This document shows positions 6,401 through 34,037 of a DNA stretch of 64,000 nucleotides, piece after piece. The DNA comes from Candidatus Sericytochromatia bacterium (GTDB lineage Bacteria; Cyanobacteriota; Sericytochromatia; S15B-MN24; JAQBPE01), in the NCBI GenBank assembly GCA_035285325.1, contig JAYKJB010000063.1:1-64000 (forward strand). Direction: 5' to 3'. A program made the position numbers and the translations under genes. Numbering within the stretch: position 1 is the first letter of the stretch; the number at the start of each line of letters is the position of its first letter. The notes under the pieces are model-generated. The model did no database searches and was not told the origin of the DNA. It saw only the letters and a list, made by a program, of their open reading frames with translations.

Positions 6401-8047
6401 CAACTGCTGGGCCTCCGCTCCGAGTTCGTTGAAGGCGGATTCCAGCACGACCCGGAGGCCACCGGGCAGCGCCAGCGTCCGGCCGTCCGGAATCTCCCAG
6501 CGCCGGCCGGCTCGCACCAGCAACCCTTTGTGGTACCAGTGCTCCAGCAGCGTGACCACCGTGCCGGGATTTCCCCCAGACAGGGTGGGCAAGGCCTCTT
6601 CGAGCAGTGCCGGCAGTTCCACCTCTCCCAGCATGGCTTGGGCCATGCGCCGGACCTCCCCGCTGTCCAACGGGACCAGCACGAGCGCGCGTTCCCCCTC
6701 GCTCGGCGCGTCTGCGCGCGTCAGGACCCAGTGCCAGTGGCAGCTTTCGCCCCGAGCTCGCAAAAAGGTCAGCAGGCTCTGCGAGGCCGGGTCAAGCTGG
6801 TCGGCGTCGTCGAGCAGCCAGGTGGCTCGGGGAGCGGCCGCCTCCGCCAGTTCGGCGATGGCGGCGTGCAGGCGCAGTTGCTCCCGGGGGCCATCCAGGG
6901 CGGCCGCCGGCGGCACCTCCAGGTCAGGCAGCAGGCGAACCAGAATCGGTGCAAGCCGCCCCAAGTTGGCGGGTTGGCGGCTCACCAGGGCCTTGAGCCA
7001 GGGGGTCAGGGCGGCATAGGGTGCCGCCTGTGCCCCCAGGCCCTGGGCCGACAGGGTGATCCAGCCGCGCAGCTGGGCCTCCGCCCGCCATGCCGCGAGC
7101 AGCAGGCTTTTGCCCGACCCTGCGCCGCCGACCAGGTGGAACAGCGAATGGCGCTCCCCCTCCACGGCGCGGGTCAGTTCCGCGAGCGGTTCCTCGCGCG
7201 CGATCATCGGGGCGCGCAACAGGCCAAGCGCCCGCTCGCCCTCGACGTCCAGCCCGAGCGCATCGAGCAGTTCCCAGCCGTCGCGGAATCGGTCGGCCGG
7301 CTGCTTGGCCAGCAGGCGGTGGACGGCGATCGCCATGTCCTCCGACACATCCGGGGCCAGGCTTTGCAGCGGGGGGGGCTCGAGCGTCAGGTGGGCGCGC
7401 AGCAACTCGACCGGCGCCCAGGTGAAATCGGGGTCGAAAGCTGGCCGGCCGGCCAGCAGGTGGTACAGGACGCCCCCCAGGGCGTACAGGTCGGCGCGTG
7501 GGTCACTGGCTGCCCCGCGGATGCACTCCGGGGCCACATAATGCAACGACCCACGGATGGGCTGGCCGGCGCGACCCGGCCGGCTGAGCAGGCCGAGATC
7601 CATCAATTTGGGCAGCCCGTCGTCCCGGAGTCGGATGTTTTCAGGTTTCAAATCGCCGTGCAGATAGCCCCGTGCGTGCAGGTAGGAGAGGGCGGCGACC
7701 AGGCCTGGGAGCCATTGGCGCAGCGAGGCTTCGGGGCAGCGTTCGCTGGCGGACAGGTCCACCCCGGGCACCGCTTCCATGGTGAAGAAGGGGCGGCCAT
7801 CCGCCAGCTCTCCATAGTCGTGACCGGCCACCAGGTTGGGGTGGCTCAGGGAGGTCATCGCACCAAATTCCTGTTTGAACAGGAAGCGCGATTCTTCGCG
7901 TTGCGCGCTCGTCGCATCGGGGGCGCCGTGGAGGATCTTCAGCGCGACCGCGCCGTCGCGCTCGCGATCGTGGACCAGATGAACCTCGCCCATGCCACCG
8001 CGGCCCAGCGGTCGAAGGTGCGCGTAGCGGCTAGGGAGCGACAGCAT
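3461..8047 (-). CDS. Ser/Thr protein kinase - AAA - TPR - GAF-GAF signalling protein
   Basis: The product is about 1528 aa. The kinase occupies residues 8-265 with GRGGMGEV, the VAIK-type lysine in ALKIL, and HGDLKPENI. The magnesium motif reads DLG (LMDLGLL) rather than DFG. An AAA/STAND ATPase follows, with P-loop GGAGSGKSLLL and Walker B TWLLDDAD, then a long TPR superhelix and two GAF domains near the C terminus. There is no recognisable catalytic output domain after the GAFs. I chose ATG 8047 because a TATAAT box at 8089-8084 puts the transcript start near 8077, downstream of the alternative GTG at 8080, and GAGG lies 10 nt before this ATG. The stop overlaps the next gene. Such kinase-AAA-GAF giants are typical of cyanobacteria-like and myxobacterial genomes. 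The signal sensed is unknown. Confidence 0.88.
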   Translation of the reverse strand: MLSLPSRYAHLRPLGRGGMGEVHLVHDRERDGAVALKILHGAPDATSAQREESRFLFKQEFGAMTSLSHPNLVAGHDYGELADGRPFFTMEAVPGVDLSASERCPEASLRQWLPGLVAALSYLHARGYLHGDLKPENIRLRDDGLPKLMDLGLLSRPGRAGQPIRGSLHYVAPECIRGAASDPRADLYALGGVLYHLLAGRPAFDPDFTWAPVELLRAHLTLEPPPLQSLAPDVSEDMAIAVHRLLAKQPADRFRDGWELLDALGLDVEGERALGLLRAPMIAREEPLAELTRAVEGERHSLFHLVGGAGSGKSLLLAAWRAEAQLRGWITLSAQGLGAQAAPYAALTPWLKALVSRQPANLGRLAPILVRLLPDLEVPPAAALDGPREQLRLHAAIAELAEAAAPRATWLLDDADQLDPASQSLLTFLRARGESCHWHWVLTRADAPSEGERALVLVPLDSGEVRRMAQAMLGEVELPALLEEALPTLSGGNPGTVVTLLEHWYHKGLLVRAGRRWEIPDGRTLALPGGLRVVLESAFNELGAEAQQLGRLAALFGPSGSLAALTALADLPQGKVFAALAELESSETLTYQAGSFRFVRPAQALALASSFSEAEQCTWHARLAWELSGRGEQQPNTTQLGLAERMAIARHCLAGEQPEAAIAWTLSAARLARAISALPALLPLLQAVAGVAPLDDRARAELYDTWAAALRWQGDSSEALKLLENEVLPASSACDAGARAQCLTSLGIAYQVTGNLAKGVEALLQAVALADQADDVVAGVRARLHAGRTSYFSGDTVKARGLLADAVKQGREAAVDTMVGSAMSLYGYVLATSDPDQRDEGLALLEEAIAYNMAHDNPYDLHEACNNLGNVYLNRGCVEEARALFERCQSIAQKMSMANERGFALLNLGTTDLELGRLEEATAHALQAAELSRKQGRKFPEAYALAILGLARILQGELVPGLAQLDTALKLAQDLGNRYLELNVYARRLTALLHLGHLTRAAEELTRAEELAVASEDIQMTGTLAAFASVLKLATGDAQAADALREMVAVARRAQNPLALAQALRWEAESHFRMQATDAALNLLEEAAQLAESHSFQLLGAEILALWGRVLEPLDREAAAGRFSEGLSLAQGAACPVLEAVCRGGLGRTQFAASRERLEAPAQLNRLLIDLDEAARADYLVWPERHALLQHVAAPTGAGSLDRLRQLTEVIGAVTLQTDLDEVMQRALIALVELAAAERGFLLLYSGFQVTKQVFYGLEAWESDTFSTGLADQVLWSGEPVFVQDATGDALLSNRLSVQTLNLRTVLGVPLHDGEETLGVMLADSRRVNPDFGPAELDLALALGRQVAIAIRRAREWADLCQAYEEQSLLHRLSLRLLASDSLEAGFTLVATEALALCRASRALLLEGRSTRALLAVDAAGQRLPEEAGDVSSSVAGWVHDEGQPLHLVDAQADAAFQSRASIQALGLRSIYAVPVRLGDATLGVLYLDHPNILEENVAALATLVRLGEMLAAFWQRFPSPQGSRAPR

Positions 8048-8083
8048 GGGAGCAAGACCTCGTCGGCGCCTGGACGGCACCTC

Positions 8084-17375: not shown

Positions 17376-20300
17376 TCAGTGGCTCGCCTGCGAGGCCTTG
17401 GCCTGGCTTTCCTGCTTCTTCAATTCTTCCGGTGAGAGCATGCCTTCTTGCCAGCTCTGAACTTGATTGCGTCCCCCGGCCTTGCACGCATACAGGGCCG
17501 TGTCCGCCCGTTCGAGCAACTCGGCCACGCGTTCGTCGGTCGGCAACAGCGAAGCCACGCCCAGCGAGGCGGTAATTCGGCCCACCGGCTTGCCTTCCAG
17601 GTCGACCAGTTCCACCTCGCTGATGGCTTCCCGGATGCGCTCGGCCACGGTGCAGGCCCCCGGCGAGTCGGTGTCGGGGCACAGAATCACAAATTCCTCG
17701 CCGCCAAAGCGACAGGGCAGGTCGCTGGCTCGGACCGATTGGGGCAAAATTTTGCCGACGACCTTGAGCACCTCGTCGCCGATGGCATGGCCGTGGGTGT
17801 CGTTGAATTTCTTGAAGTGGTCCACATCCAGCATGATCACGGCCATGTTGCGGTGCTGGCGTTTCGACAGCTCGATCTCGCGCGACGATTGATCCTGGAA
17901 GAAGCGCCGGTTGTAGAGTCCGGTCAGCACGTCGGTGCTGGCCTCGTGCTCGGCCCGACGGTACATGTCGAGGGCCTTCTCCAGTTCGTCGGCGCGCTGG
18001 TTGAGGCGGGTGTAGAGTGTCGCGTTTTCGATCGCGCCGCTCGAGTGGCCCGCGATCGCCCGGAGCAGGTCGAGGTCCCGTTCGCTGAAGGTCGACACCA
18101 CGGCCTGGCTGTCGACGTACAGCACGCCCAGGTTGCGCCCCTTGGCCTGAAGGGGCACGCACATCAGCGTGCGCAGGTTCAGGGACATGATCGACTTGGA
18201 CGTCTGAAATTCCTCGTCGGCGAGGGCGTCCACCACCGTGATGGCCTGTCCGGTGGTCAGCACCTTGTCGCAGATCGAACGTGAAATACGCTCCTCCAGC
18301 AGGGCCTTGCCATCGCGGTCAAAGGCGGCCTTGCAAACGAGTTGATGCTCTCCGGCCAGCTCATCCAGCAGCATGAGGAAACCGCGTTCGGCGTGGGTGA
18401 CCTCCAGCGTCAGGCGCACCACCAGGTTCAGCACCTCCTCCACGACGAGGGTTTCATTGATTTTCTCCGCCAGTTGGTTGAGCATTTCCAGCTGGCGGCT
18501 GCGCTGCGCCATCTGGGCCGCCCGCGCCGCGTTGCGCACGGCGATGCAGGCCTGGTCCGCCAGCCGCGAGACGAAACGCAGGTCCTCGTCCTGGTAAGCC
18601 AGCCCATCGGCGGTCTCGCGATCCAGGTACAGCTCACCCACGACGGCCTGTCCCAGTCGCACCGGCACCGCCATCGCCGTCTGGACACGCAGGCTGTTGG
18701 TCTTGACGGCCTCTGCGGTGCGGGGATCCGTGGGAGCGTCCTCCACCCAGGCGCCGTTGCCGCTGGTGCGGGCTTGGGTGATCAGTTGGGTCGCCAGGGC
18801 CCAATCCGCCTGATAGCCGCCGTCTGGACGAATGTGGCGCATGATCTGGCCGGTGAAGAAGTCCGCCTCGATCATCAGATAGGCGCGCTCGGCTTTGACC
18901 TCCGACATCAGGCCATCCAGCGCGCGGCTCAAAGCCTGCTCGGGATCACGCAGCTCCGTGAGCGATTCTGCATAGTCCAGGACGCGCTCGAGCCGCAGCA
19001 AGGTATCCTCGGTGGCATTGTTCTCGCTGTGCTGGGCCGCCACCTGGGAAGCCAGATCGGCCAGTTCTCGGGCCATCCGGATGAGGCGTTCGCCGGGCGC
19101 TCCGCCCGTGACCGCTTCCCCTGAAGCCGGCGCGAGCCCCAGCAGCGCCTCCGCACCTTGGATGCGCAGGCGTTCCGGCAAAGACACGAAGTGACGCCGT
19201 GCTTCATCGTCAAAGTCCTCCAGCAAGGTCCGGAAGACCTTCTGGGCCTCCACGAAGCGTTGTTTGTTCACCCGCTGGTAGGGGTTCACCGAGGCCAGGC
19301 CGTGCAGTGCAGCGGCTCGCTGCAGCGGGGTACCCAGCGCCTCCGCCCCTTGTTTGGCGTGCTCGAAGCAGAGCGCGGCCTGGTCGGCTTGCCCCAAGCG
19401 CAGCAGCACTTCGCCTTGCAACAGGGAGGCCAGCATCCCCTGATGCTGGGCACCGATGGTCAGCGCCATCGTGCGGGCCTCCTCAGCCAGGGCACAGGCC
19501 CGCTCGAGCTGGCCGGCTTGAAGTTCACACCAGGCCAGGGTGCGCAGGGCACGCACCTGATTGCCCTTCGCGCGAGCTTTGCGCGAGGCTTCCAGCGATT
19601 GGGTCACCAGGTTGACGCCGGTGTCGCTCTTTCCCAGTCGCACCAGCACCTCGCCCAACATCGCCTGCATCCGACTTTCGGGTTCGGTGTTGCCCGTTTC
19701 CTGGATCAAGGCTGTGAGGGCCTGGCCGGTCGCCCGGGCCTGCTCGAGGCGACCTAGCTGCAACTGGATTTCCAGCGTGTACTGCAGCACCAGCGCTTCC
19801 AGATACTTGTTCTTGATCTCGCGTGCCAGTTCGAGGGCCGTGCCCGCCAGTTCGAGGCCCTGGCTCATGTCGCCCAGGTAGGTTGAGGCGCAGGCCTCCA
19901 GGGTGAACGCCATGCCCAGCGGAAACTTGGAGTTCAGGCTCGTGGCGATTCCGTTCGCTTCCCGTGCCAGCTCGATGGTATCGCGGTATTGCCCTCGCTC
20001 GTAGGCCGTGATGGCCAGATTCAGGATGGCGAAGATCTCTTCGTCGCGCAGCCCGATCTCGACACAAATTTTCTTGTTTTGCTGAAAGGTTTCCCAGGCG
20101 GCGTCGAAGTTGCCCTGCATGTTCTGGGCATTGCCGAGCAGGTTGTAGGCGTTGTTCAGTCCCACCCGGTCGCCCACGGCACTGAGGATGTCGACCGCTT
20201 CTTTGAGGTTATTTTCACCTTCCTCCAGTTTGTCGGGATCCCCGCTGACGTACATCAAACCGGCAAATCCCAACGCCTCGCCAATGTAGGCAGGAACCTG

Positions 20301-22835
20301 GGCGGACCGCGCCAACTCCAGGGCACGATGGGTATGTTCAGCGGCTTCAGTCGGCTTGCCGGTGAAATACAGGATGCGGGAGCTGGTCAGCAACGCTCGC
20401 GCCGCGCCGGCCTCGTCCCCTCCGGCCTGGCAGGTTTCGATCGAGCGATTGGTGAGCGCGAGGGCGGTGGGATAGTCATTGCTCATCTGGGCAACCTTGG
20501 CCGCCGAGGTGAGCAAGCGGCCCAGGTGGAAGGACTCCTGGAGCGTTTCCGCCAGCGGAATGCACACGCCGTAATCCGCCGTGGCTTCCTCGGAGCGACC
20601 GGAGACGCGACAGACGTCCCCTCGCACTCGCCTGTAATGCAACATCAGGTGCTGACGCGGGGTGGGCAGACCTGTCGGGTTTTCGGCTTCCTCGGCCTGC
20701 AGCCATTCAAGCCCGGCGCTGAGGAAGCGGTGCGCTTCCTGGTTGGCGAACAGGTTGGCACTGCGGGTGCCGGCCTCCAGGGCAAATGCCAGCGTTTTTT
20801 CCTTGTCTGCGGCGTGGATGGCGTGGTGCGCGATCGCCGTCACCAGGGCCAGCGGGGCTTCCGAGAGCGGCGTTTCCCCCAGGGTGGCCTCCAGCGCTTC
20901 CGCGATCGCAGCGTGCAGCTGTCCTTTCATGCCAGGCTCCAGGTTGGCGTAGAGCACCTCGCCCAGCTGTCCCTGCACGAACCGATAACCGGCCTCCTCG
21001 GTGCGGACCAGGATCGATTGTTCCGCCAGTTCCGCCAGGGCGTCGAACAGGCGATCTTCGGGAAGACGGGTCACGCGCAGCAGCATGTCCAGGCCGAGTT
21101 CACGCCCGAGCACGGCACCGATGCGCGCAATGGTCAAGGCCGCTTCGCTGAGGGTGGCCAATTTTTCCAGCAACAGGCCTTGCAAGTCGCCGGGCATCTG
21201 TTCCGGCGTCAGCGTGATGTCGCTGTTCCAGCGTCCCTTGCGCTTGCAAAGGGTCTGGTTTCGCACCAGGTGTTCGAGCAGTTTTTCGATGAAAAACGGA
21301 TTGCCTTCCGAGAATGCCGCCATCTGCTCCAGGAACGTCGCGCCGATTTCCGATGAGCCGAGCATGGAGGCGACCATGCCGTGGAGCTGTTCCCCCGCAA
21401 GATTCTCCAGCACGAGGGTCTCCACCAGAGGCAGCCAGGCCGGCTGGCCTTCGGGCGTGCCGCGATGATTCAGCAGGAACAGCAGGGGCGCTTCCCGGTA
21501 ATTCCGCAGCACGTAAGTCAGCAACTCGGTGGAGAGCGGATCCGCCCAGTGACAGTCTTCCAGTACCAGGACGACGCCGCGGCGACTGGCCAAACCCGCC
21601 AGCAGTTCCGAGACGGCCGCCTGCAGGCGCATCTTTTCCTTGGAGGGCGGGTCCAGGTCGGGAGCCGCGACGATGGGGTCCAGTTGTGCCAGCGTGCTCA
21701 GGTCCGGGATCAACTTGACCAGAATCGGCGCCTGGCGGTTGAGCAAATCCGGAACATGCTCCCGAAAGGCCGGCACCAGGCCGCGCAAGATCTCAACGAA
21801 CGGCCCATAGGGCGCCGTGCCCTGTTCATACGACGCTCCCACGACGAAGGGATGGTTTCGCATCTGGACCGCGAAGCGAAACTCGTTGACCAGGCGACTC
21901 TTGCCGACGCCGGCTGGTCCACTCAGCAACAGGGCACCGGCCGGCAGCCCCTGGCTCAAGCGTTCCAGGCCCTGGCTCAGGCGGTCGAGTTCGGCGGCTC
22001 GGCCCACGAACGAGGGCGAGAGCAGCACCGCGCCGGACGTTTCTCCCACGTCGATGCCGAGATCCTCCAGGACGTCGTACGCGGACTGATAGCGCGCCGG
22101 TGCATCCTTTTCCAGCAATTTATGGATGACCCTCTCCCAGACAGGGTCGACCTGAGGATTCAGCTCTCGCAGCGGGGTCGGCGCTTGCTTCAGATGGGCT
22201 TGAATCAGCGCCACTGGCTCTTGATCCGTGAAGGGCAGGCGGCCTGCCAGCATCTGGTAGCCCAGGCATCCCATGGAATACAGGTCGACGCGCTGGTCCA
22301 GGCGGCCCCCCCGTGCCATTTCCGGGGCCATGTAACCCAGCGTGCCCTTGATCGTGCCGCAGGCGCCGCCCGCGCGCTCCATCAATCCGAAGTCCATGAG
22401 GCGCACTTCCCCATCGGGTCGCACGCGCGCGTTCTCATCCTTGATGTCGCAATGAACGAAGCCTTGCTGGTGGAGGTAACCTAGCGCCAGCATCAGCTGG
22501 CTGAACACGCTGCGGAAGGTCTCGTTGTCCAGCGGCAGCATCTCATCGAGGCCTTGGCCGGGCACCACTTCCATCGTGAGGAAGGGCGAGCCATCCGGAA
22601 GTTGGCCGAAATCGTACACCGCACAGCAGTTGGGATGGCGCAGCGCCGCCATCTGGCGAAACTCTTGCTTGAATTGCAAGATCGCTTCTTCCGACGCACC
22701 CAGCTTGGAGGAGAGGACCTTGAGCGCGACTTCCTGATGTGTGGTGGTGTCCTCGACAAGGTTCACCAGGCCCATGCCGCCCTCTCCGAGCTTTTTGATC
22801 ACTCGGTAGCGACTTGCAATGACTTCGCTGGTCAT
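17376..22835 (-). CDS. Ser/Thr kinase - AAA - TPR - GAF-GAF - diguanylate cyclase
   Basis: The product is about 1819 aa. The kinase (about 10-265) has GEGGMGLV, lysine in ALKVLS, HCDIKDENA (HCD, not HRD) and DFG. The AAA/STAND ATPase has P-loop GPAGVGKSRLVNE and Walker B VLVLEDCHWAD. A long TPR array follows, then two GAF domains and a C-terminal GGDEF domain (about 1640-1810). The GGDEF domain is intact: MLDVDHFKKFND, FGGEEF, and an RASD inhibitory I-site exactly five residues before GGEEF. It should therefore make cyclic di-GMP with product feedback. ATG 22835 has GAGG 5 nt upstream and starts just before the kinase. It is a paralogue of the genes at 1 and 3461, the only one ending in a cyclase. 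Kinase target and GAF ligands are unknown. Confidence 0.9.
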   Translation of the reverse strand: MTSEVIASRYRVIKKLGEGGMGLVNLVEDTTTHQEVALKVLSSKLGASEEAILQFKQEFRQMAALRHPNCCAVYDFGQLPDGSPFLTMEVVPGQGLDEMLPLDNETFRSVFSQLMLALGYLHQQGFVHCDIKDENARVRPDGEVRLMDFGLMERAGGACGTIKGTLGYMAPEMARGGRLDQRVDLYSMGCLGYQMLAGRLPFTDQEPVALIQAHLKQAPTPLRELNPQVDPVWERVIHKLLEKDAPARYQSAYDVLEDLGIDVGETSGAVLLSPSFVGRAAELDRLSQGLERLSQGLPAGALLLSGPAGVGKSRLVNEFRFAVQMRNHPFVVGASYEQGTAPYGPFVEILRGLVPAFREHVPDLLNRQAPILVKLIPDLSTLAQLDPIVAAPDLDPPSKEKMRLQAAVSELLAGLASRRGVVLVLEDCHWADPLSTELLTYVLRNYREAPLLFLLNHRGTPEGQPAWLPLVETLVLENLAGEQLHGMVASMLGSSEIGATFLEQMAAFSEGNPFFIEKLLEHLVRNQTLCKRKGRWNSDITLTPEQMPGDLQGLLLEKLATLSEAALTIARIGAVLGRELGLDMLLRVTRLPEDRLFDALAELAEQSILVRTEEAGYRFVQGQLGEVLYANLEPGMKGQLHAAIAEALEATLGETPLSEAPLALVTAIAHHAIHAADKEKTLAFALEAGTRSANLFANQEAHRFLSAGLEWLQAEEAENPTGLPTPRQHLMLHYRRVRGDVCRVSGRSEEATADYGVCIPLAETLQESFHLGRLLTSAAKVAQMSNDYPTALALTNRSIETCQAGGDEAGAARALLTSSRILYFTGKPTEAAEHTHRALELARSAQVPAYIGEALGFAGLMYVSGDPDKLEEGENNLKEAVDILSAVGDRVGLNNAYNLLGNAQNMQGNFDAAWETFQQNKKICVEIGLRDEEIFAILNLAITAYERGQYRDTIELAREANGIATSLNSKFPLGMAFTLEACASTYLGDMSQGLELAGTALELAREIKNKYLEALVLQYTLEIQLQLGRLEQARATGQALTALIQETGNTEPESRMQAMLGEVLVRLGKSDTGVNLVTQSLEASRKARAKGNQVRALRTLAWCELQAGQLERACALAEEARTMALTIGAQHQGMLASLLQGEVLLRLGQADQAALCFEHAKQGAEALGTPLQRAAALHGLASVNPYQRVNKQRFVEAQKVFRTLLEDFDDEARRHFVSLPERLRIQGAEALLGLAPASGEAVTGGAPGERLIRMARELADLASQVAAQHSENNATEDTLLRLERVLDYAESLTELRDPEQALSRALDGLMSEVKAERAYLMIEADFFTGQIMRHIRPDGGYQADWALATQLITQARTSGNGAWVEDAPTDPRTAEAVKTNSLRVQTAMAVPVRLGQAVVGELYLDRETADGLAYQDEDLRFVSRLADQACIAVRNAARAAQMAQRSRQLEMLNQLAEKINETLVVEEVLNLVVRLTLEVTHAERGFLMLLDELAGEHQLVCKAAFDRDGKALLEERISRSICDKVLTTGQAITVVDALADEEFQTSKSIMSLNLRTLMCVPLQAKGRNLGVLYVDSQAVVSTFSERDLDLLRAIAGHSSGAIENATLYTRLNQRADELEKALDMYRRAEHEASTDVLTGLYNRRFFQDQSSREIELSKRQHRNMAVIMLDVDHFKKFNDTHGHAIGDEVLKVVGKILPQSVRASDLPCRFGGEEFVILCPDTDSPGACTVAERIREAISEVELVDLEGKPVGRITASLGVASLLPTDERVAELLERADTALYACKAGGRNQVQSWQEGMLSPEELKKQESQAKASQASH

Positions 22836-22964: not shown

Positions 22965-24374
22965 CTACTTCTTTTCCGCCTCCTTGACCGGCCGCCATTC
23001 CAGGCCAAGCCAGACCGTGTTCTCGTTGTTGGAGATGGGGCGGGCCCACTGCGCCATGAGACCGTACTGGCTTTCTCCCAGGGGGAAGTAGCTGGCTCCC
23101 AGCCGGATATGTGGCCTGAACGGGTCGAAGAGCTGCCCCATCAGCGTGACCCGGTCCGTCAGACCGTAGTCCAGGCCCACCCCGATTTTCGAGCGAATCA
23201 GCCCGAAATGGTATCCGGCAGGCCCCCACACTTTGGTGTCACCCAGAGACAGGTTGAAGAAGTTCCCTTCGCCGACCTGCTCGATGCCCGCTGCAATCGT
23301 GTTGTTGGCCACCCGCATCCTGACGCCCAGATTCGCCGCCAGGCCGGTGCCGTCCGGTTTGTTCAAGCCCACCGCCTGAACCTGCGGCTCGATCGCGATG
23401 CCGTCGAAGTTTTTCGATTCCGTCAGGGCCGTGGCACCGGTGACCCGCGCCGTCAGGTCGCGGATGTTGCGCACGGTGTCTTTGAGGTCGCGCTGAATCT
23501 CGGGATCGCCCGCCGTCGAATTGAGGGTCGTGGCGAGCTGGTCGAGCCGGTGAATCAGGCTGCGCAGATCCTGCACGGCGCGCTGATTGGCCGCGGTTTG
23601 CTGCGGTCCGAGCAGCACCTCGTAATTCCTGACCAGGCCACGCGAGAGGGTCCGCATGTCGCCGATAATTCCGGCGACCTCCTGCGGCGTCGTGGCGGCG
23701 GCGAGTTCGTTGGCGTGAGTGGCGAGCTGATTCACCGTTTTCAGCAACTGGGAGATGTCGCGCGGGGTCGCCTCCAAACCTTTCAGGATACCCTCGGCCT
23801 GGTTGCCGAGCCGATTGACCGTCTCGGTCGTGTTGGCCAGGTTCTCCGCGGTCTTGGCGAAGAGTCGCTCGAACTTCTTCGGGTCGACCGACTTGCGGAA
23901 GGATTCGAAGGTGTCCGTGACCTCGTCCAGCACCAGTTCCAAGCGCGAGGGGTCCTCCCCTCGCACGGCCTCCTGCGGTTTCAGCCAGACAATCGGCACC
24001 GGGCTCGGAGCGGGCTGCCCCTTCATCTGGAGGGGTGGCTTGGGGGGGAAGATCTCCAGCGCCTTTTCACCGATGATGCCCAGCGACATGATCTTGTAGC
24101 GTCCGTTCTTGGGCAGCTGGGTCTCGCTGTCATTGACGTGTACCGTGACTTCCACCAGTGCCCCCCGAGGGTCCAGGTGCTTCACGCGTCCGATTCTCAG
24201 ACCCATGTAGCGCACGTTGGCGCCCGGCAAGAGCCCCGCCACGTCCCCGAAGCGCACGGTGAAGTCATAGCCGGTGGGGCGCAGCGAAAAACTGGTCAGC
24301 CAGCTGAGCCCCACCCCGATCGCGATCAGGGAGGCAAGGGTCGCGGCACCGACTTTGGCAGCGGGAGAAATCAC
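22965..24374 (-). CDS. mlaD: MlaD-like MCE protein with a C-terminal beta domain
   Basis: The 469-aa protein has one N-terminal membrane anchor (about 8-30), an MCE domain (about 35-115; GLLPGANVRYMGLRIGRV is diagnostic), a long helical region with coiled-coil character (140-320), and a C-terminal part of about 140 residues made of alternating strands that looks like a small beta barrel (GVGLDYGLTDRVTLMGQ). MCE proteins ring and carry phospholipid across the periplasm with an MlaFE transporter. The start is GTG with GAGG 8 nt before it. It is encoded 104 bp after mlaF. It is longer than E. coli MlaD (about 180 aa), and the barrel-like tail could contact the outer membrane (inference). Confidence 0.88.
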   Translation of the reverse strand: MISPAAKVGAATLASLIAIGVGLSWLTSFSLRPTGYDFTVRFGDVAGLLPGANVRYMGLRIGRVKHLDPRGALVEVTVHVNDSETQLPKNGRYKIMSLGIIGEKALEIFPPKPPLQMKGQPAPSPVPIVWLKPQEAVRGEDPSRLELVLDEVTDTFESFRKSVDPKKFERLFAKTAENLANTTETVNRLGNQAEGILKGLEATPRDISQLLKTVNQLATHANELAAATTPQEVAGIIGDMRTLSRGLVRNYEVLLGPQQTAANQRAVQDLRSLIHRLDQLATTLNSTAGDPEIQRDLKDTVRNIRDLTARVTGATALTESKNFDGIAIEPQVQAVGLNKPDGTGLAANLGVRMRVANNTIAAGIEQVGEGNFFNLSLGDTKVWGPAGYHFGLIRSKIGVGLDYGLTDRVTLMGQLFDPFRPHIRLGASYFPLGESQYGLMAQWARPISNNENTVWLGLEWRPVKEAEKK

Positions 24375-24478: not shown

Positions 24479-25237
24479 TCAGTCGCCCGTGAGGTCCTGA
24501 GTGACGACGCCGTCGAGAAAGTGCCGGATCAGGGGGACCTGGGTGGCGCGCATCTCATCGGGCGTGCCACTGCCGACGACCTGTCCCTGATACAGCATGG
24601 TGATGTGGTCCCCGCAGAAAATGGTGCTGTGCTGGTGCGTCACCACGATCGAAGTGGCCTGCGTGTCGCGGGTCAGGCCCACAATCAGCTTTTCAATCAC
24701 GGTGCTGGTGATCGGGTCGAGGCCCGTGGTCGGTTCGTCATACAGGATCGTGCCCGGATCCCGCGCGATCGCCCGGGCCAGGCTGACGCGTTTCTGCATC
24801 CCGCCGCTGAGGTTGGCAGGGTAGAGATGCTCCACCCCAGGCAGGTTCACACGGGCGAGCTTCTCCGCCACGATGCGCTCCAGCTCCGGGCGGGGCACCT
24901 CGAGATGCTCGGCAATCGGGAAGGCCACGTTTTCTCCGATCGTCATCGAATCGAAGAGGGCACCGGCCTGAAAGACGAAGCCCAGCTGCTGCCGGTACGA
25001 TTTCATCTCGTCGGCGGACAGGCGGGTGATGTCCCGCCCGTCGACCCAGACCTTGCCGCGGGTGGGCCTCAGCAAGCCCGCCACGAGGCGCAGGACCGTG
25101 CTCTTGCCACAACCGGACGGCCCGATCACCACGCTGGTGCGTCCGGGCAGAAAGGTCAGATTGATGCCCGTCAGAATCTGGCGCGGGCCAAAGGCCATGT
25201 GGACATCTTCGAGTCGGATGGTGGGGCCCTGGCTCAT
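24479..25237 (-). CDS. mlaF: MlaF-type ABC transporter ATPase
   Basis: The 252-aa ATPase energises the MlaE permease for lipid transport at the inner membrane. It has Walker A (GPSGCGKSTVLR), Q-loop (GFVFQAGALFDSMT, typical of the Mla/MCE group), signature LSGGMQKR, Walker B with catalytic Glu (TILYDEPTTGLDP) and the switch His (VVTHQHS). ATG 25237 overlaps the mlaE stop (ATGA), so the two are coupled. Length and motifs match the MlaF/Ttg2A family. Confidence 0.93.
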   Translation of the reverse strand: MSQGPTIRLEDVHMAFGPRQILTGINLTFLPGRTSVVIGPSGCGKSTVLRLVAGLLRPTRGKVWVDGRDITRLSADEMKSYRQQLGFVFQAGALFDSMTIGENVAFPIAEHLEVPRPELERIVAEKLARVNLPGVEHLYPANLSGGMQKRVSLARAIARDPGTILYDEPTTGLDPITSTVIEKLIVGLTRDTQATSIVVTHQHSTIFCGDHITMLYQGQVVGSGTPDEMRATQVPLIRHFLDGVVTQDLTGD

Positions 25238-26022
25238 CGCAGGCCTCCCCCCGGAAAGAGCACCAGGCTCAGGAAGTAATTCAGCACGAAGATCGCGATC
25301 ATGCTGTGGACCACCGAGTTGGTGGTGGCCTCGCCCACGCCCTGGGCGCCTTTCTTGGCGTTCAGGCCTTGATGACAGCCGATCACGGCAATCAGGAAGC
25401 CGAAAATGCCGGCCTTGAACATCCCCTTGAAGACGTCGGCGGGGACCAGAAATCCCTGAATCGAGTTGAGGAACAAGGCCGACGAGATGCCCATCATCTT
25501 GGTGGCCACCAGCCATCCGCCGGCGGCCCCGATCAGCAGGCCGAGGCCCGTCAGCAACGGGACCATCACCATGCAGGCAATCACCCGTGGCACGACCAGA
25601 TAGCGGCCAGGGTCGACGGCAAAGGCTTCCAGCGCGTCGATCTGTTCGGTGACTTTCATCGACCCCAGTTCGGCGGCGATCGCCGAACCCACACGACCCG
25701 CGATCACCACGCTGACCAGGATGGGGGCCAACTCTCGCGCGAGGGCGATCGAGACCACCCCGCCGATGGCGGTGGTCGCCCCGTACTTGATGAACTCATG
25801 GGTGATCTGCAGGGTGAAGACCATGCCCACCGAGAGCGAGATCAGCAAGGCGATCGGCAGGGAGTCGACGCCGATGAAGGCCAGCTGGGTCACGGCGTTG
25901 CGGTGGTGAATCTGGCCCGTGAGCAGGAGACGCAAGGCGCGCAGGCCCAAGGTCGTCAGGTTCCCGAAAAATTCGAGGAACCCGAGGGTTTTCATCCCAA
26001 CTGCTTCAAGGGCTTTGATCAA
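25234..26022 (-). CDS. mlaE: MlaE-type lipid ABC transporter permease
   Basis: The 262-aa permease has five or six membrane helices and the MlaE/YrbE signature ELGSMKVTEQIDALEAF. It forms the inner-membrane channel for phospholipid exchange with the MCE protein. The start is uncertain. TTG at 26022 gives MIKALEAVGMKTL; an ATG at 25995 would remove nine residues and leave the interface helix. Neither has a strong ribosome-binding site. It lies first in an mlaE-mlaF-mlaD series behind the DUF2993 gene. Confidence 0.92.
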   Translation of the reverse strand: MIKALEAVGMKTLGFLEFFGNLTTLGLRALRLLLTGQIHHRNAVTQLAFIGVDSLPIALLISLSVGMVFTLQITHEFIKYGATTAIGGVVSIALARELAPILVSVVIAGRVGSAIAAELGSMKVTEQIDALEAFAVDPGRYLVVPRVIACMVMVPLLTGLGLLIGAAGGWLVATKMMGISSALFLNSIQGFLVPADVFKGMFKAGIFGFLIAVIGCHQGLNAKKGAQGVGEATTNSVVHSMIAIFVLNYFLSLVLFPGGGLR

Positions 26023-26083: not shown

Positions 26084-26944
26084 TTATTCCCGCGGGTCGG
26101 GGGTCTGTTGCAGGCCTGTCGAAGCTGGTTGTTCGGGAGCGGCCGGAAAACCCGCCGGACGCAACCAAGGGGCCGGGTCTGCGGGGAGGGTCCCGACCAG
26201 TTCCACCTTCAGGAGCGGGCTGATCACTTCAAGACCCTGAAAGCGCCAGCCGTCCCCCGGCAGCGGCAGCGTGGCCAGGTCCAGCCGGGCTTCCAGGGTT
26301 CGCAGCATCGCTTTCAGCACGACCCCAGGAATGCGACGGCCGGCCCACGTCGCCTCGGCCCCGGCCAGTCGGATGCGGTGTCCGTCCGGAGATTCCGGCA
26401 CTGCTGTCACGACGATCGGCAGAGGCGCGCCTCGGGCCGCCACCACCTCGGCCTGCAATTGCAGGCGTCCGTCACTCAGCTGGACCTTCAAGGCTTGCAG
26501 CCGGGCGCGCTCACCGAGTTTTTTCTTCAGGGGCAGCGGGACGGCGAATCCATCCGGAATGGCGATCGCCACGGCCTGACGGAGCCAGGCCGTCAGCGTC
26601 TCCTCGCTCGCCGCGACCTGGAGCGAGATCGGGGCCGGGGCGAGCAGAGCCGGGGGCTGCAGCCCCATCAGGGCCTGGCTCGTCAGACGCAGGTCGGTCA
26701 GTTGAAGCGTCATCTCGGGCAGGGGCAGACCCGACCAGGCGGCCTGGCGCAGGCGGACCGTCATCGCCGGCACGTGGCCACGGGGCAGATCGAGCAACGG
26801 GTCGGCCTCCAGCTGCACCTCGACCTGGGCACGCTCACCGCCCCGCCCTTGGAGTTCAGTGGCCACATGATCCGCCAGCACCCCCGGGGCCATCGCGCTC
26901 AACGCCAGGGTCAGGATTGCGGCCAGGGTCGCCTGCAACATCAT
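26084..26944 (-). CDS. DUF2993 (LmeA-like) lipid-binding protein
   Basis: The 286-aa protein has a signal peptide (MMLQATLAAILTLALSAMAP) and the DUF2993 pattern: an N-terminal helix ending in HVATELQ, repeated strands with a PAMTVRLRQAAWSGLPLP segment, and a second similar half. LmeA-type proteins bind phospholipid in the cell envelope; the family is frequent in Cyanobacteria and Actinobacteria. The gene starts 4 bp after the SLH porin and precedes mlaE by about 60 bp, which fits a role in outer-membrane lipid supply. The C-terminal 35 residues are Pro-rich and probably disordered. Confidence 0.78.
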   Translation of the reverse strand: MMLQATLAAILTLALSAMAPGVLADHVATELQGRGGERAQVEVQLEADPLLDLPRGHVPAMTVRLRQAAWSGLPLPEMTLQLTDLRLTSQALMGLQPPALLAPAPISLQVAASEETLTAWLRQAVAIAIPDGFAVPLPLKKKLGERARLQALKVQLSDGRLQLQAEVVAARGAPLPIVVTAVPESPDGHRIRLAGAEATWAGRRIPGVVLKAMLRTLEARLDLATLPLPGDGWRFQGLEVISPLLKVELVGTLPADPAPWLRPAGFPAAPEQPASTGLQQTPDPRE

Positions 26945-26948
26945 CGCC

Positions 26949-28418
26949 TCAAAAGTCCTTGCTGATCCCGAGGGTGGCGCCCAGCATGGTCTGGCTGCCA
27001 CCGCTCAGGGCTGGGCTCAGCCACATGCCGAGGCCGCCCTCCAGGGCCCACTGGTCGACCAACCGATAGCGGGCCCGCCCGTCGAGATCCAGCCCCAGTC
27101 GCGTCAGACTCTGAGGACCTCTCGGCAGGTTATAGCTCTGGAAGAGGGGCAGGAGCAGCGCTCGCCCAAACACGTCGAGATCGGCCGAGGCCCGGTAGGC
27201 AAAGGCGGCCCCAGGGCCGAGGCCCATGTAAGTCTTGTCTGCCGACAGGTAATACTGGCTGACCAGTTGCCCCGTGAGGTTGAACTGAGAGCGCCACAGG
27301 GCGCCGCCGCCCACGGCCAGCTCCCAGTCGGCTTCCTGGTTGAGTCGGTACCACGCGGCCCCGGAAAGGGTCGTGTCCAGCATGTCGACCGGGGTGGCTC
27401 GTCCCTGGTGGGGGATGTCGAAACCCAGGTAAGCCGTGCGCAGCTGGGCGCTTCCCCCCCATGGGCCTTGCCAGTACTCCCCGCTGGCTCCACCGCCCCC
27501 GAGCATCGACCCCGAAAACTGTGGTGGTTCTCCCGTCGTCACGGCGCCGGTCTGGCGGGGCAGATCCTCGTTGTACAGCAGGATCAAGGAACCGTTCAGC
27601 TGGCCGCGGGTTTGCCATAGCGGGCGCTGCATCCCGCTGCGGGGCTGCGTTGTGGGGAGGGCGCTGGCGGTCTGAGCAGGCAACGTCGCCGCAGGGGTCG
27701 GCGTTGGCAGGCCGGCAGGACCGCCGTCCGGGGGACGACTAGCCAGCGGCGCAGGCGTGGGTTGAGATGCCTCCTGCAGCTCCCGTTCAACCGCCGGGTT
27801 CAGATAGGGCAAGGCCTTGATCAGCATGCCGAGCAGCTGAAACCGGGTCACGGTGTTCTGCGGAAAAAATCGACTGCCAGGCCGGCTGTCGAGCAGGGCA
27901 TAGCGGTTCACGATCCGGTCCAGCGTGCCGAACAGCGGGGAGCCGGCCGGCACATCGGCAAAAAAGACCGCCTGGCGCCGGCGCGCCGGTGGCGAGACGC
28001 CGTTCTTTTCCAGCAGGGTGTCGAAGGCCTCGACCAGTTCCTCACGGGAGACCCCCGCATCTCCTCGAAACAGGCCCGGCTTGGGGCCTTTCATCAACTC
28101 GAAGCCCAGCACCCGCTGAACGTCGCGCGTGGCTTCGTGACCAGGCGGCATGTCATTGAGCACCACGAAGGTGGCCGGTGGTCCGCCCTCCCGATAGAGC
28201 GCGCTGATCGTCTGGGCCAGTTCGTAGCGTGTCAGCGGGACCTCTCCGGCGAAGTCGACCGGTGTGCGACCGCCCATGAGGCGGTGGTCGGCCAGCACGC
28301 TCGCCGGCACGCGGGCCCAGTGGCCCGGCGGAATGTCTCGGAACTCCACGGCCGCCTGGGCGGCGCCACTGGCGAGCAGGCTGAAAATGAGGGCGGCAGG
28401 CAGACAGCGCGACAGCAT
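26949..28418 (-). CDS. SLH-domain outer-membrane beta-barrel protein
   Basis: The 489-aa protein has a signal peptide (cleavage after AAQA, about residue 22). Three SLH-like repeats follow (about 25-200), recognisable from PPGHWARVPASVLADHRLM, the RYELAQTI turn and RFQLLGMLIKAL. After a Pro/Thr-rich linker (220-270) comes a C-terminal barrel of amphipathic strands ending in phenylalanine (GISKDF), the usual outer-membrane insertion signal. Cyanobacterial SLH porins have the same order, anchoring to pyrogenic cell-wall glycan. There is no Shine-Dalgarno; a perfect -10 box lies 8 nt before the ATG, so the mRNA is probably leaderless. Confidence 0.82.
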   Translation of the reverse strand: MLSRCLPAALIFSLLASGAAQAAVEFRDIPPGHWARVPASVLADHRLMGGRTPVDFAGEVPLTRYELAQTISALYREGGPPATFVVLNDMPPGHEATRDVQRVLGFELMKGPKPGLFRGDAGVSREELVEAFDTLLEKNGVSPPARRRQAVFFADVPAGSPLFGTLDRIVNRYALLDSRPGSRFFPQNTVTRFQLLGMLIKALPYLNPAVERELQEASQPTPAPLASRPPDGGPAGLPTPTPAATLPAQTASALPTTQPRSGMQRPLWQTRGQLNGSLILLYNEDLPRQTGAVTTGEPPQFSGSMLGGGGASGEYWQGPWGGSAQLRTAYLGFDIPHQGRATPVDMLDTTLSGAAWYRLNQEADWELAVGGGALWRSQFNLTGQLVSQYYLSADKTYMGLGPGAAFAYRASADLDVFGRALLLPLFQSYNLPRGPQSLTRLGLDLDGRARYRLVDQWALEGGLGMWLSPALSGGSQTMLGATLGISKDF

Positions 28419-28492: not shown

Positions 28493-28861
28493 TCAGGGGA
28501 ACGGCAGCCCCGACAGCCGGTCGCCCAGCTGGACCCCAGCCTGCTGCAGGCGCCCGGCCGGTAGTTCCAGCACGGCGTGTGCCCCTCGGACCGGCCAATC
28601 CATCTGCCATGGGCGCATCGCGTGCCGCATGGCCAGGACCTCGCCGAGATGACTGAGGTACAGCACGTCGATGGCATAGCGCATGCCGAAACAGTGCACG
28701 GCGTTGCAGGGGATGAGCAGCAACCCCTCGGCCGCCGCCAGGGGAGGGCCCGCCAGCAGACCGACCAGGCGTTGCCAGGCGGTATCGGCCACGCGCGCGC
28801 GCAAAGCCAATGGCTGTCCCGTTCGAACGAGGGTCAGGCAGAGCGCGGCCGCCGGGCTCAA
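28493..28861 (-). CDS. DUF192 family protein
   Basis: The 122-aa protein fits DUF192: a core with RLVGLLAGPPLAAAEGLLLI, a CFGMRYAIDVLYLS segment where most members read WMKNT.xxLDxxF, and a C-terminal VLELPAGRLQQAGVQLGD. DUF192 proteins are small beta barrels of unknown function that often lie next to secretion or envelope genes. It starts at TTG with GGAG 6 nt upstream; TTGA overlaps the tadC stop, so it is the last gene of the Tad transcript. It lacks an obvious signal peptide, unlike many relatives. Confidence 0.75.
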   Translation of the reverse strand: MSPAAALCLTLVRTGQPLALRARVADTAWQRLVGLLAGPPLAAAEGLLLIPCNAVHCFGMRYAIDVLYLSHLGEVLAMRHAMRPWQMDWPVRGAHAVLELPAGRLQQAGVQLGDRLSGLPFP

Positions 28862-29808
28862 GGCGCACTCCAGTTGGTGAACAATTCGAGGGCCACCGGT
28901 CCGAAGATCACGATGAAGACCACCGGGAAGATGAAAAATACCAGCGGGAAGGAGAGCTTCACGGGGGCCTGCATGGCCTGTTCCTGGGCGCGTTGAATGC
29001 GGTTGTCGCGGGCAATCTCACTCTGGACGCGCAGGCTCTTGGCCACGCTGGTGCCCATGGCCTCGGTCTGGATCATGGACATGACCACCGAGTTGATTTC
29101 CTTGAGGCCGACGCGGCGGGCCATTTCCTTGAGCGCGTCCCCTCGGGGACGTCCGAGCTGGATCTCACGCAAGACCTGGTCGATTTCCTCGCGCAGCGGG
29201 GAGGGGCGCGTCTTCTCCACCACCTTTTGGAGACTCGCCTGGAGGGAGAGGCCTGCTTCCACGCACACGGTCAGCAGGTCGAGAACGGTCGGGAGCTGTT
29301 TCAAGATGGCGTTGCGTCGGCGATCGCCCTCCTGCCTCAGCACCAGCACCGGGTACCAGTAGCCTCCGATGCCCGCAATCAGGGCCATCAGGGCTGCCAT
29401 GGCCGTGTTGTAACCGAACAGCGCGATCGCGAAGACCACCGCGCCGAGGGGCATCAGCACGGCGCATTTGACCTGCCAGACGCGAACTTGCAACGGCGTC
29501 ATGGCGTAGCGCCCCGCCGTCTGCAGGAGCTTGGCCAGGTCGTTGGACTCCCCTTCCGTGAAGCGCTCCTCCACGAAGGGCTTGAAGGCTGAGTCCAGCT
29601 TGGTGTTGAGGTCGGCCAGGGCGTCGGGGTTGGCCTTGCCCTCGGCCGCGGGATCCCGCGGTCGGAAGCTGGGGCGTTCTTCCGGTTGGGTGAGGCGCTT
29701 CAGGCGTTCCTCGACGTCTTCGCGCTGTTTGGGCTTGGCGATCGCCAGAAAGAACAGGAAGGTGGAGGCAAAAATCAGGAACGCCAGCAGCAGTACCACA
29801 GGGTCCAT
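28858..29808 (-). CDS. tadC: Tad pilus inner-membrane platform protein TadC
   Basis: The 316-aa type II/IV secretion platform protein (T2SSF domain) has an N-terminal membrane helix (1-24), two central helices (115-155) and a C-terminal pair (285-312). The conserved cytoplasmic segment between them contains LPTVLDLLTVCVEAGLSL and MIQTEAMGTSVAKSLR. With TadB it forms the platform that the TadA ATPase turns to extrude Flp pilin. It lies 3 bp after tadB and overlaps the DUF192 gene. Confidence 0.92.
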   Translation of the reverse strand: MDPVVLLLAFLIFASTFLFFLAIAKPKQREDVEERLKRLTQPEERPSFRPRDPAAEGKANPDALADLNTKLDSAFKPFVEERFTEGESNDLAKLLQTAGRYAMTPLQVRVWQVKCAVLMPLGAVVFAIALFGYNTAMAALMALIAGIGGYWYPVLVLRQEGDRRRNAILKQLPTVLDLLTVCVEAGLSLQASLQKVVEKTRPSPLREEIDQVLREIQLGRPRGDALKEMARRVGLKEINSVVMSMIQTEAMGTSVAKSLRVQSEIARDNRIQRAQEQAMQAPVKLSFPLVFFIFPVVFIVIFGPVALELFTNWSAP

Positions 29809-29811
29809 CGC

Positions 29812-30729
29812 TCACACCTCGATCGTCACGATGCGCTTGATGAAATAGGCGCCGGCCGCGATCATGCCGGCCCCCAGCGCGGTCATCAGCATGCCAATGG
29901 GGTGGCTCAGCAGCAGGCCCGTCCGGTCAGGGGCGATCAGAAACATCGCCACGAAGAGCCCCACGGGCAGCAGGGCCAGCACCCAGCCGCTCATGCGACC
30001 TTGCGTCGTCAGGGTGCGAATCTGTTTTTGCAGCTTGTTGCGCTGCCGGATCGTTTCGGCCACCGTGTCCAGAATCTCGGCCACGTTGCCACCCGTCTGG
30101 CGTTGCACGATCAGGGCGGTGGTGGCGATTTCCAGCTCCTCGAGCGGAATGCGCTCGGCCCAGGCGGCCAGAGCAACGTCGAGCGGAACCCCCATTCGCA
30201 GCTCCTGCAGCACCTCCGTTACTTCCCCGCGGATCGGGTCCGAAAAGTCCGTCGCAATCGATTCGAAGGTCTGCAGCACGGTCTGTCCGCTCTTGACGCC
30301 ATTGGCCATCATGCTCAGGGCATCGGTGAACTGGTCCAGAAATTCCGCCAGGCGTTGATTGCGGCGCATCTCCAGGTAGGCGTGGCGGGACCGCCACGTC
30401 ACCATGCCGAGCCCCCCACCGAACAGGACTCCCCCCGGGGTCAGGCCGCCCATCAGGAATCCCACCGCCGCCACGCCGAGGGAGGCCAGCAGCCAGCGCT
30501 GCCGAAAGGTCTGGGGGGTGAGGTCCAGGCCTGCCTGGCGCAGATGTTTCGCGAGGGCTTGCTCACCCCCTTGGTCGCTGGGGCGGGCGGGCGTCGCACC
30601 CGCCTGGGGCGTAGCGCCCGCCCCAGGCCGTTCGTGGTGGCTCTGCCAGGCGCGCAGGGCGAACCAGGCGGCCCCGAAGACCAGCCCGAACAGACCCACG
30701 AAGAGGAGTAGCTGCGTCGCCAGGCTCAC
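29812..30729 (-). CDS. tadB: Tad pilus inner-membrane platform protein TadB
   Basis: The 305-aa protein has one N-terminal helix (5-25), a pair at 85-115 and a C-terminal pair (245-300), with the T2SSF core (EFLDQFTDALSMMANGVKSG and ATTALIVQRQTGGNVAEIL). It forms the platform with TadC. It starts at GTG and lies about 25 bp downstream of the ATPase gene. Length and topology are typical for TadB. Confidence 0.92.
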   Translation of the reverse strand: MSLATQLLLFVGLFGLVFGAAWFALRAWQSHHERPGAGATPQAGATPARPSDQGGEQALAKHLRQAGLDLTPQTFRQRWLLASLGVAAVGFLMGGLTPGGVLFGGGLGMVTWRSRHAYLEMRRNQRLAEFLDQFTDALSMMANGVKSGQTVLQTFESIATDFSDPIRGEVTEVLQELRMGVPLDVALAAWAERIPLEELEIATTALIVQRQTGGNVAEILDTVAETIRQRNKLQKQIRTLTTQGRMSGWVLALLPVGLFVAMFLIAPDRTGLLLSHPIGMLMTALGAGMIAAGAYFIKRIVTIEV

Positions 30730-30754
30730 GACCCGCGCATCCTGTTCGCCATCA

Positions 30755-32938
30755 TCACGTCAGAGGGCCTTTCTGAAACAGGTCGGCCGGGAGCTGGAAC
30801 CCCATACTCTCGATGGTATCCAGGCAGTAAGGCCGGATGCCCGTCGCACGGAAACCGCCTTCCACCTGTAGCTGGCTACGGCCTGACTGCCGAAACTCGA
30901 AGATATCCTGCATGCTGATGATCTCACCTTCCATGCCGGTCACCTCGGAGATGCGGGTGATCTTGCGGCTGCCATCCGTCAGACGACTCTGCTGAACGAT
31001 CAGGTGGATCGCGGAGGCAATCTGCTCCCGGATGGCCCGGACCGGCAGGTCCATGCCGGCCATCAACACCATGGTCTCCAGCCGGGCCAGGGCGTCCCGC
31101 GGGGAGTTGGCATGGCCCGTGGCCAGCGAGCCATCGTGACCGGTGTTCATGGCTTGCAGCATGTCGAGGGCCTCGCCCCCGCGCACCTCGCCCACGATGA
31201 TCCGGTCGGGCCGCATGCGCAAGCTGTTCCGGACCAGGTCGCGGATCGGAATCGCCCCCTGACCTTCGATGTTCGGAGGACGCGCCTCCAGCGAGATGAC
31301 GTGGGCCTGCGCCAGTTTCAGTTCGGCCGCGTCCTCGATCGTGACGATTCGCTCGTCCGGCGGGATGAACGAGGACAGCACGTTCAGCAGGGTGGTCTTG
31401 CCCGAGCCAGTGCCGCCCGAGATGAACACGTTCAGCTTGGCCTGCACACAGGCTTCCAGGAAACTCGCCATGGGCACCGTGCAGGTGCCGAAGCGAATGA
31501 GGTCGTGGATCCCCAGGCGTCGTTTGGAGAACTTTCGGATCGTGATGGTGGAACCGTTCAGGGCCAGTGGCGGGATGATCACGTTCACCCGGGAGCCGTC
31601 TGGGAGGCGGGCATCGACCATCGGGCTCGATTCGTCCACGCGCCGTCCGATCGGCGCCACGATGCGATCGATCACCACGCGTAGCTGCTTCTCATCGGTG
31701 AAGGTGCGGTCCGAACACGTCAGGCGCCCCTGGCGTTCGATGAAAATCTGCCCTGGCCCGTTCACCATGATTTCACTGACGCTGTCGTCGGCCAGGAAGC
31801 CCTCCAGCGGGCCGTAGCCGATCGCTTCGTTGGCGATGTCCATCACGATACGGGCCCGCTCTCCGCGCGTCGCCAGCTTGAGCTGCATGTCCTCGATCAG
31901 GCGGTTGACCCGCTCGGCCACCTGCTCCCGCATCACGGACTTGAAGTCCGGGTCGGCCAGCCGTTCGAACGGGATGTCCTCCAGTTTCATCTGCTCGACC
32001 AGCTTGGCGTGGATGGCCACCTTCATCTCGCGCAGGGCGAGCTGGTCTTGGTCGCGGGGAATCAAGGCTCCGCCTGCTTCGTCGGCCAGGCCTGGCGCAT
32101 GGCGGTCGGCTGGCGGCGCGGGCAAGGGGCCCGTCATGGCCGTCGGAATCGGATGGGCGGCTGCGCTGGCTTCGGGCGTCAGTTCCGTCAGGGGGCGTTG
32201 CGCCAGATCCACCTCGGGAAGCTGTTGCAAGCGTTCGACCAGGGTCTGAATGGCCTGCGACACGGGGTGGTTGGGAGAATGGCTGACAATCGGCAGTCCG
32301 CGGTTCAGGGCACTCACCACCTGCGGGTGGTAGGGAATCCGGCTGAACAGACGGCGTTTGAGCGTGGTGGCGACGTCCTCGGCGGAGATGTCGGCCGTGA
32401 TGCCTTCTCGATTCAGCGCCACGGTCAGGCGATCGCTCGGAAAATGCAGGTCGCGGGCGCGGTCGAGCAACTCCTTGGTGGCCTGGAGGGTGGGAATGTC
32501 CGGCGTCACGATGGTCAGGACCACCGAGGCCAGGTCGAACAGCGGCAGCATCAGGGGACTGATGTGCGGCCAGCAGGTGTCGATGATCAGGTGGTCGTGG
32601 TGTTCGGCCAGCTGGTGCAGCAGCGCCACCACCCGGCGATGCGGGATGACGGCCTCACCGGGTGGCGGAGCGGCCAGCAGTTGCACCCCGCTGGGATGAG
32701 GGATCAGCAGGCGCGCCAGCGGCGTGTTGCGGTTGACCCAGTCGCCCCAGTGCAAGCCACCGGTGTCCAGGTCGAGGAACGAGGCAAGGCTTCCGCCGGC
32801 GAGCCAGTCCAGGTCGACCAGCACCGTTTTCGCGCGATGGCGGGTGGCCAGGGCCACCGCGATGTTGGCGGCCAGGACCGAGCGTCCCACTCCCCCTTTG
32901 CCGCCGAACAGCGTGATGATGCGCGCCCGTTTTGCCAT
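30755..32938 (-). CDS. Fused CpaE/TadZ-CpaF/TadA: MinD-like plus pilus ATPase
   Basis: The 727-aa protein joins two Tad proteins that are normally separate. Residues 1-240 are a MinD/ParA-like ATPase (TadZ/CpaE) with a deviant Walker [10 protein letters not shown]; Arg replaces the second Lys of KGGVGKS/T. A Pro/Ala linker follows (about 250-290). Residues 300-727 are the TadA/CpaF secretion ATPase with Walker A ([13 protein letters not shown]), the Asp box ([11 protein letters not shown]), Walker B ([16 protein letters not shown]) and the His box ([12 protein letters not shown]). TadZ localises the apparatus and TadA powers pilin assembly. No frameshift or internal start is visible at the junction. 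Fusion fixes them at 1:1. Confidence 0.92.
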
Positions 32939-32940
32939 GG

Positions 32941-34002: not shown

Positions 34003-34037
34003 GCGAGCGCCCCTTTCAGGTCGCGGTGGTCCAGCCC

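Follow-up and report, generated by a model that had tools for sequence, protein, structure and literature searches.

In a Candidatus Sericytochromatia bacterium, the genes of the MlaE-MlaF-MlaD transporter are directly followed by a gene for a single protein that carries a Ser/Thr kinase at one end and a GGDEF domain at the other, and this linkage is a feature of the order, most of which retains it, though not the whole. The gene lies in a stretch of 64,000 nucleotides, which we call the window. The chain is a real fusion whose enzymes, judged from their motifs, look intact. It is most likely a diguanylate cyclase gated by its GAF and STAND modules, which would tie outer-membrane lipid transport to c-di-GMP.

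Domains and motifs of the kinase-cyclase chain

A preliminary description of this DNA had read kinase, AAA, TPR, GAF and diguanylate cyclase domains in one chain of 1819 aa, encoded by a single ORF that is open over its whole length, and the Pfam search bears this out by placing every domain over the cut-off (Table 1). It had also placed a GGEEF cyclase with an I-site behind the kinase, which agrees with what we find, so that modules for phosphorylation and for c-di-GMP synthesis are joined in one chain. Among the matches listed (25 families), no NCBIfam equivalog exceeds its cut-off for the chain, and Pfam gives no HisKA-HATPase match at its C-terminus.

Table 1. Features of the window discussed in the text; residues are numbered along the 1819-aa chain
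Feature	Position in window	Strand	Basis or remark
Paralogue cut at contig edge: kinase, AAA_16, start of TPR	2-2371	-	Pfam; continues on contig C24
Paralogue: kinase, AAA_16, TPR, two GAF stretches	3461-8080	-	Pfam
Whole chain: Ser/Thr kinase, AAA_16 (STAND-like) NTPase, TPR, GAF, GAF, GGDEF	17376-22835	-	ORF and Pfam
GGDEF diguanylate cyclase domain, residues 1632-1791	17463-17942	-	Pfam, E 1.5e-47
GGEEF signature, residues 1711-1715	17691-17705	-	Motif
I-site RASD (RxxD), residues 1702-1705	17721-17732	-	Motif
Second GAF, residues 1466-1601 (best GAF stretch)	18033-18440	-	Pfam over cut-off
First GAF, about residues 1291-1450	18486-18965	-	Limits by eye; Pfam gives two GAF stretches
TPR alpha-superhelix, about residues 634-1230	19146-20936	-	Pfam and model; limits approximate
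AAA_16 NTPase, residues 276-453	21477-22010	-	Pfam over cut-off
Protein kinase domain, residues 10-250	22086-22808	-	Pfam Pkinase over cut-off
MlaD (MCE) protein, directly upstream of chain	22965-24374	-	Same strand
MlaF-like ABC ATPase	24479-25516	-	Upstream of MlaD
MlaE permease	25234-26022	-	Upstream block

The loss of catalytic residues, named beforehand as a refutation, was looked for by alignment and did not occur. In the GGDEF domain, which among solved structures is nearest to those of WspR and PleD, the alignment with PleD reads VRASDLPCRFGGEEF (window chain) against VRAIDLPCRYGGEEF (PleD). The GGEEF, DVDHFKKFND and DVLTGLYNR stretches align with both known enzymes, so the metal and substrate residues are present, and the I-site, which an active cyclase can do without, is separated from the signature by exactly five residues (RASD-LPCRF-GGEEF). 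The kinase, nearest among solved chains to PknB and StkP, has all its catalytic residues, that is, K39, E58, D130 (in the HCD of residues 128-130), N135 and D148 (in the DFG of residues 148-150). It carries HCD in place of HRD and thereby lacks the mark of RD-type kinases, which is the mark of a subtype and not a requirement of the family. Non-RD kinases often do not need activation-loop phosphorylation.

The middle of the chain has a make-up like that of a STAND protein, with a Walker A motif (GPAGVGKS, residues 306-313), a Walker B motif from residue 423 (LVLEDC) and a superhelical sensor arm, as seen from the AAA_16 match, the motifs and a TPR model at high pLDDT. In the model of the NTPase and TPR parts, the TPR half alone is confident, the NTPase half having a pLDDT below 50 in long stretches, and a Foldseek search lists 6mfv, a structure of the STAND-TPR type, at rank 17, with an rmsd of 14. 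Four TPR_12 stretches exceed the Pfam cut-off and reach residue 1124; the confident model ends at residue 1000. The model of the GAF-GAF-GGDEF part is unusable (mean pLDDT 40).

A counterpart in a genome of the same family is 63% identical over residues 1-1811. Full-length counterparts at 39-41% identity are present in three further genomes of the order. Against the five relatives that are linked to Mla genes (see below), identity is 47-74% in the kinase, 37-58% in the NTPase part, 30-55% in the TPR, 25-50% in the first GAF, 57-79% in the second GAF and 46-81% in the GGDEF domain. The second GAF ranks with the best-conserved regions, level with the enzymes, and the TPR arm and the first GAF vary. 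This is what one would expect if the second GAF and the enzymes were the working core, and we read the second GAF and the cyclase as a probable fixed unit behind a variable sensor arm. All six Mla-linked chains keep GGEEF and RxxD, as well as the kinase Lys, Glu, HxD Asp, Asn and DFG/DYG Asp; the HxD variant is HCD or HGD in every one of them, and the GKS of Walker A is kept throughout, the first Gly of the motif being Ala in one genome (G006).

Linkage to the Mla genes and descent of the linked chains

MlaE was searched in 10 genomes of the order and gave 28 matches, among which those with an E of at most 1.2e-74 are called canonical here. One canonical copy is present in 9 of the 10 genomes (it is missing from G004), and at 6 of these 9 loci, MlaD is immediately followed, on the same strand, by the kinase-GGDEF chain, in genomes that belong to four families (G000, G001, G002, G003, G006 and G007). 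The gap between MlaD and the chain measures 129 nt in the window and, in the five other genomes, 0-75 nt by the start codons that were considered. A search of the coding strand between the two genes showed no terminator-like site, a promoter scan found 0 where 0.9 were expected, and Rfam gave 0 matches in the window. In the stretches fetched from G003, G006 and G007, MlaE, MlaF and MlaD are the only window-like ORFs beside the chain.

The linkage has its limits. In G009, there is no chain within 3.9 kb past MlaD, and none was seen in G005 and G008, where the contigs end 2.0-2.5 kb past MlaF. For the other 19 MlaE matches of the order, 10 regions were fetched and none has a kinase match. Outside the order, 20 further MlaE matches (48 minus 28) were found in 8 genomes, and none of the 12 regions fetched there has the chain beside MlaE, one of them (L239) having a single weak kinase match at its edge, more than 7 kb off MlaE. 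Mla therefore works without the chain.

Upstream of MlaE, the window also encodes an LmeA-like phospholipid-binding protein and an SLH-domain protein (26084-28418, minus strand), and ORFs similar to both are found at the equivalent place in the same-family genome.

The descent of the linked chains was considered on two trees, a C-terminal one that covers all 21 GGDEF chains collected, and a kinase-NTPase one with 39 of the 40 collected chains (P0009 left out), which is a quick tree with long branches. A single clade of the six Mla-linked chains was rejected on both (AU p 6.6e-38 on the kinase-NTPase tree and 3.9e-5 on the C-terminal tree), and a clade enlarged by G005_C26 was still rejected on the C-terminal tree (AU p 2.8e-4). 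On the latter, a starred clade holds the six linked chains and, nested among them, four unlinked ones. One ancestral Mla-linked locus that shed duplicates would be the simplest reading of these trees. This wider set, of the ancestral locus together with the duplicates, was not rejected on the kinase-NTPase tree, with a p of 0.48 for a set that was picked with the tree already in view.

One chassis with several outputs

The combination of a kinase HMM with an AAA_16 or a GGDEF HMM retrieves 16 chains from the fetched stretches of the bacterium's own genome, a count that takes in the three chains of the window. Five of them end in GGDEF, one in HD_5 (on contig C59), five in a GAF-like end only, and five are shorter with no output seen; in these last two groups, Pfam was run on P0002 only, and the other tails were assigned by reading. 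The two paralogues in the window had both been described as lacking a visible cyclase. This stands for the one at 3461-8080, in which Pfam finds no GGDEF and which stops after its GAFs, and fails for the one that is cut at the contig edge. The 127 edge bases of the window are the reverse complement of those with which contig C24 begins, a stretch found at those two contig ends only in a search of the assembly, and the continuation on C24 stays in frame and adds GAF, GAF and GGDEF. The 127-bp overlap suggests that both parts belong to one chain, which is counted once above and called the joined chain.

The genome has 14 GGDEF matches, five of them in kinase chains, namely the window chain, the joined chain and those on C4 (P0008), C63:108040 (P0010) and C21 (P0009). 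The cyclase signature is intact in three of these five. GGEEM is found in the joined chain and in P0008, neither of which has RxxD at the right spacing. Degenerate signatures are found in P0010 (DDTTF) and P0009 (GGEAF), both of which keep RxxD. P0009 (L047:3103-7914, minus strand) is also missing the Lys, HxD and DFG residues of its kinase, and it seems to have lost both enzymes. The other c-di-GMP parts of the genome are 7 HD_5 and 4 PilZ matches, with no match to EAL, and one 585-aa frame (C84:35631-36698, plus strand) has both GGDEF and HD_5, a maker and a breaker of c-di-GMP together. Directly downstream of P0008 lies a MacB/FtsX-type permease gene (L233:6439-7662, minus strand, C4), 53% identical to one in G001 C358 that is adjacent there too, so that P0008 is, after the window chain, another kinase-cyclase chain with an envelope transporter as its neighbour.

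The chassis that these chains share is found with other outputs. The HD_5 chain on C59, which has the same chassis with two GAFs, keeps HD, HHE and DGKGYP and is of the HD-GYP type, that is, the c-di-GMP-degrading type, and it shares 59% identity over 1847 columns with a counterpart on G001 C125. A gene with a SpoIIE-type phosphatase domain follows it directly (L231:6502-7878, minus strand), and a similar ORF likewise follows the counterpart in G001. In G017 and G011, two genomes that belong to the class but not to the order, and in a chain from Bdellovibrionia (L211), the kinase-AAA_16-TPR-GAF chassis ends in a SpoIIE-type phosphatase, and in a cyanobacterial genome (G018), it ends in HisKA-HATPase. 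The matches obtained in G017 coincide with those in Candidatus Sericytochromatia bacterium KatS3mg068 (L080), and those in G001 with those in Cyanobacteria bacterium RYN_339 (L097). For GGDEF outside the Mla group, 8 output-label changes are counted on the kinase-NTPase tree, at least 5 of which are forced by starred branches, and the GGDEF-bearing G001_C294 groups with two HD_5 chains (99, starred). With several such changes on the tree, it is therefore likely that outputs were exchanged or lost on one shared chassis.

A kinase-TPR-GGDEF architecture is already known and has been in print since 2005, when a 1826-aa Ser/Thr kinase of Clostridium thermocellum (gi 23020879) that has six TPRs and GGDEF at its C-terminus was listed, with a remark on c-di-GMP (BMC Genomics 2005, PMC1262709). 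In the accessible part of that paper, this chain is like ours in having the kinase first, the TPR in the middle, the GGDEF last and a near-equal length, and unlike ours in that no AAA, GAF or Mla linkage is named for it. By Pfam, the order Pkinase-AAA_16-TPR-GAF-GGDEF is found in Herbivorax and in Anaerolineaceae, the TPR match of the latter being under the cut-off. The chain of Herbivorax, which we take to be a near relative of Clostridium thermocellum, differs from the window kinase in having T in the place of K39, HRE in that of HxD and NFG in that of DFG. A scan of named genomes, which covered the best 80 of at least 597 candidate loci as ranked by GGDEF similarity, had a kinase in the ORF by HMM at none of the 80; one of these loci (L113) is from Herbivorax, whose genome has its kinase-GGDEF fusion elsewhere. 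The TOMM kinase/cyclase fusion (TIGR03903) likewise has a kinase and a nucleotide cyclase in one chain, but its cyclase is presumably of class III and not GGDEF, and the match to residues 276-716 of the window chain, at 196.4 bits, does not reach the cut-off of 705.75. The HstK or cbSTKIII chains of cyanobacteria (PMC2176072; G018 is an example) share the kinase-AAA_16-GAF chassis and a length of about 1850 aa, but have HisKA-HATPase as output where the window chain has GGDEF; the survey lists STK-GAF-HisKA chains, and its main text nowhere uses the word GGDEF. In the literature covered, which lies mostly outside subscription journals and includes the accessible parts of PMC7159879 and PMC12826048, no report of the HD-GYP version or of the Mla linkage was found, and among the matches listed, no title or opening of an abstract ties c-di-GMP to MlaD, MCE or phospholipid transport.

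Possible role beside the Mla transporter

The explanation that we find best, and put forward tentatively, is that the chain is a cytoplasmic hub, expressed together with MlaE-MlaF-MlaD, which reports the state of the transporter as c-di-GMP through a cyclase under I-site feedback. GGDEF enzymes act as dimers, I-sites confer product inhibition, and STAND proteins switch by nucleotide-dependent assembly. In such a hub, binding of a partner or ligand at the TPR and GAF parts would lead the NTPase to change its assembly state, and the assembly would pair GGDEF domains so that c-di-GMP is made, until a high level of product halts its synthesis through the I-site. The kinase may phosphorylate the chain itself or a partner, the first candidates being the Mla proteins, and the main job of the co-expressed chain would be to sense or adjust the state of the transporter. 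Co-transcription, ligand, gating, phosphorylation target and the link from lipids to c-di-GMP are what we infer here.

The conserved I-site also suits another reading, in which the GGDEF domain would mainly be a c-di-GMP sensor that, on binding, alters how the chain assembles and switches the kinase, phosphorylation of partners being the real output. RxxD persists in the two paralogues with a broken signature (GGEAF and DDTTF) as well as in the six Mla-linked chains, and binding may therefore outlive catalysis in some siblings. However, the window chain and its five linked relatives keep GGEEF and the metal and substrate residues, for which a pure receptor has no need, and we consider this reading unlikely for them.

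It is also improbable that the chain is a general signalling protein of an expanded family, which came to lie behind mlaD by chance, with its targets elsewhere and a position inherited without function. The abundance of such chains in the genome, most of which are not beside Mla where their neighbours could be seen, speaks for it, as does the absence of the linkage from some genomes. Yet a four-gene block kept in four families is hard to explain without selection, all the more as the other genes that flank it in G003, G006 and G007 have no match to the window.

The preliminary description had found cross-talk with the neighbouring Tad pilus tempting, and regulation of this pilus by local c-di-GMP would be the corresponding reading. 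The part of the claim that stands is the proximity: the window has a Tad cluster at 28858-39435, and the same-family genome, too, has Tad-like ORFs close to the gene. But the stretches fetched around the G003, G006 and G007 relatives contain no match to the window's Tad ORFs, and a PilZ domain is absent from the ten window ORFs scanned; we grade the cross-talk as weak and find this reading very improbable. As the conserved neighbours in distant relatives are the Mla genes, Tad linkage was dropped as the main lead. The cluster itself includes a 727-aa chain (30755-32938, minus strand) that joins a TadZ-like ParA domain to a TadA-type T2SSE ATPase. Finally, an assembly or reading-frame artefact, to which a source assembly in 138 contigs might lend some colour, is refuted as the origin of the fusion by the full-length counterparts in independent genomes.

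Returning to the hub at the Mla locus, one may go further and see the kinase-STAND-TPR-GAF chassis as a socket for exchangeable second-messenger outputs, with both GGDEF and HD-GYP in use within the order. The window chain would then be a maker of c-di-GMP dedicated to MlaEFD, and outer-membrane lipid flux, Ser/Thr phosphorylation and c-di-GMP would form one circuit, an extension that we regard as doubtful. The parts worth following are the Mla linkage and the sibling with the opposite output. The position kept behind mlaEFD hints at what the chain controls and offers a concrete target, and the HD-GYP sibling on the same chassis raises the question of whether a single sensing apparatus can serve c-di-GMP outputs of opposite kinds.
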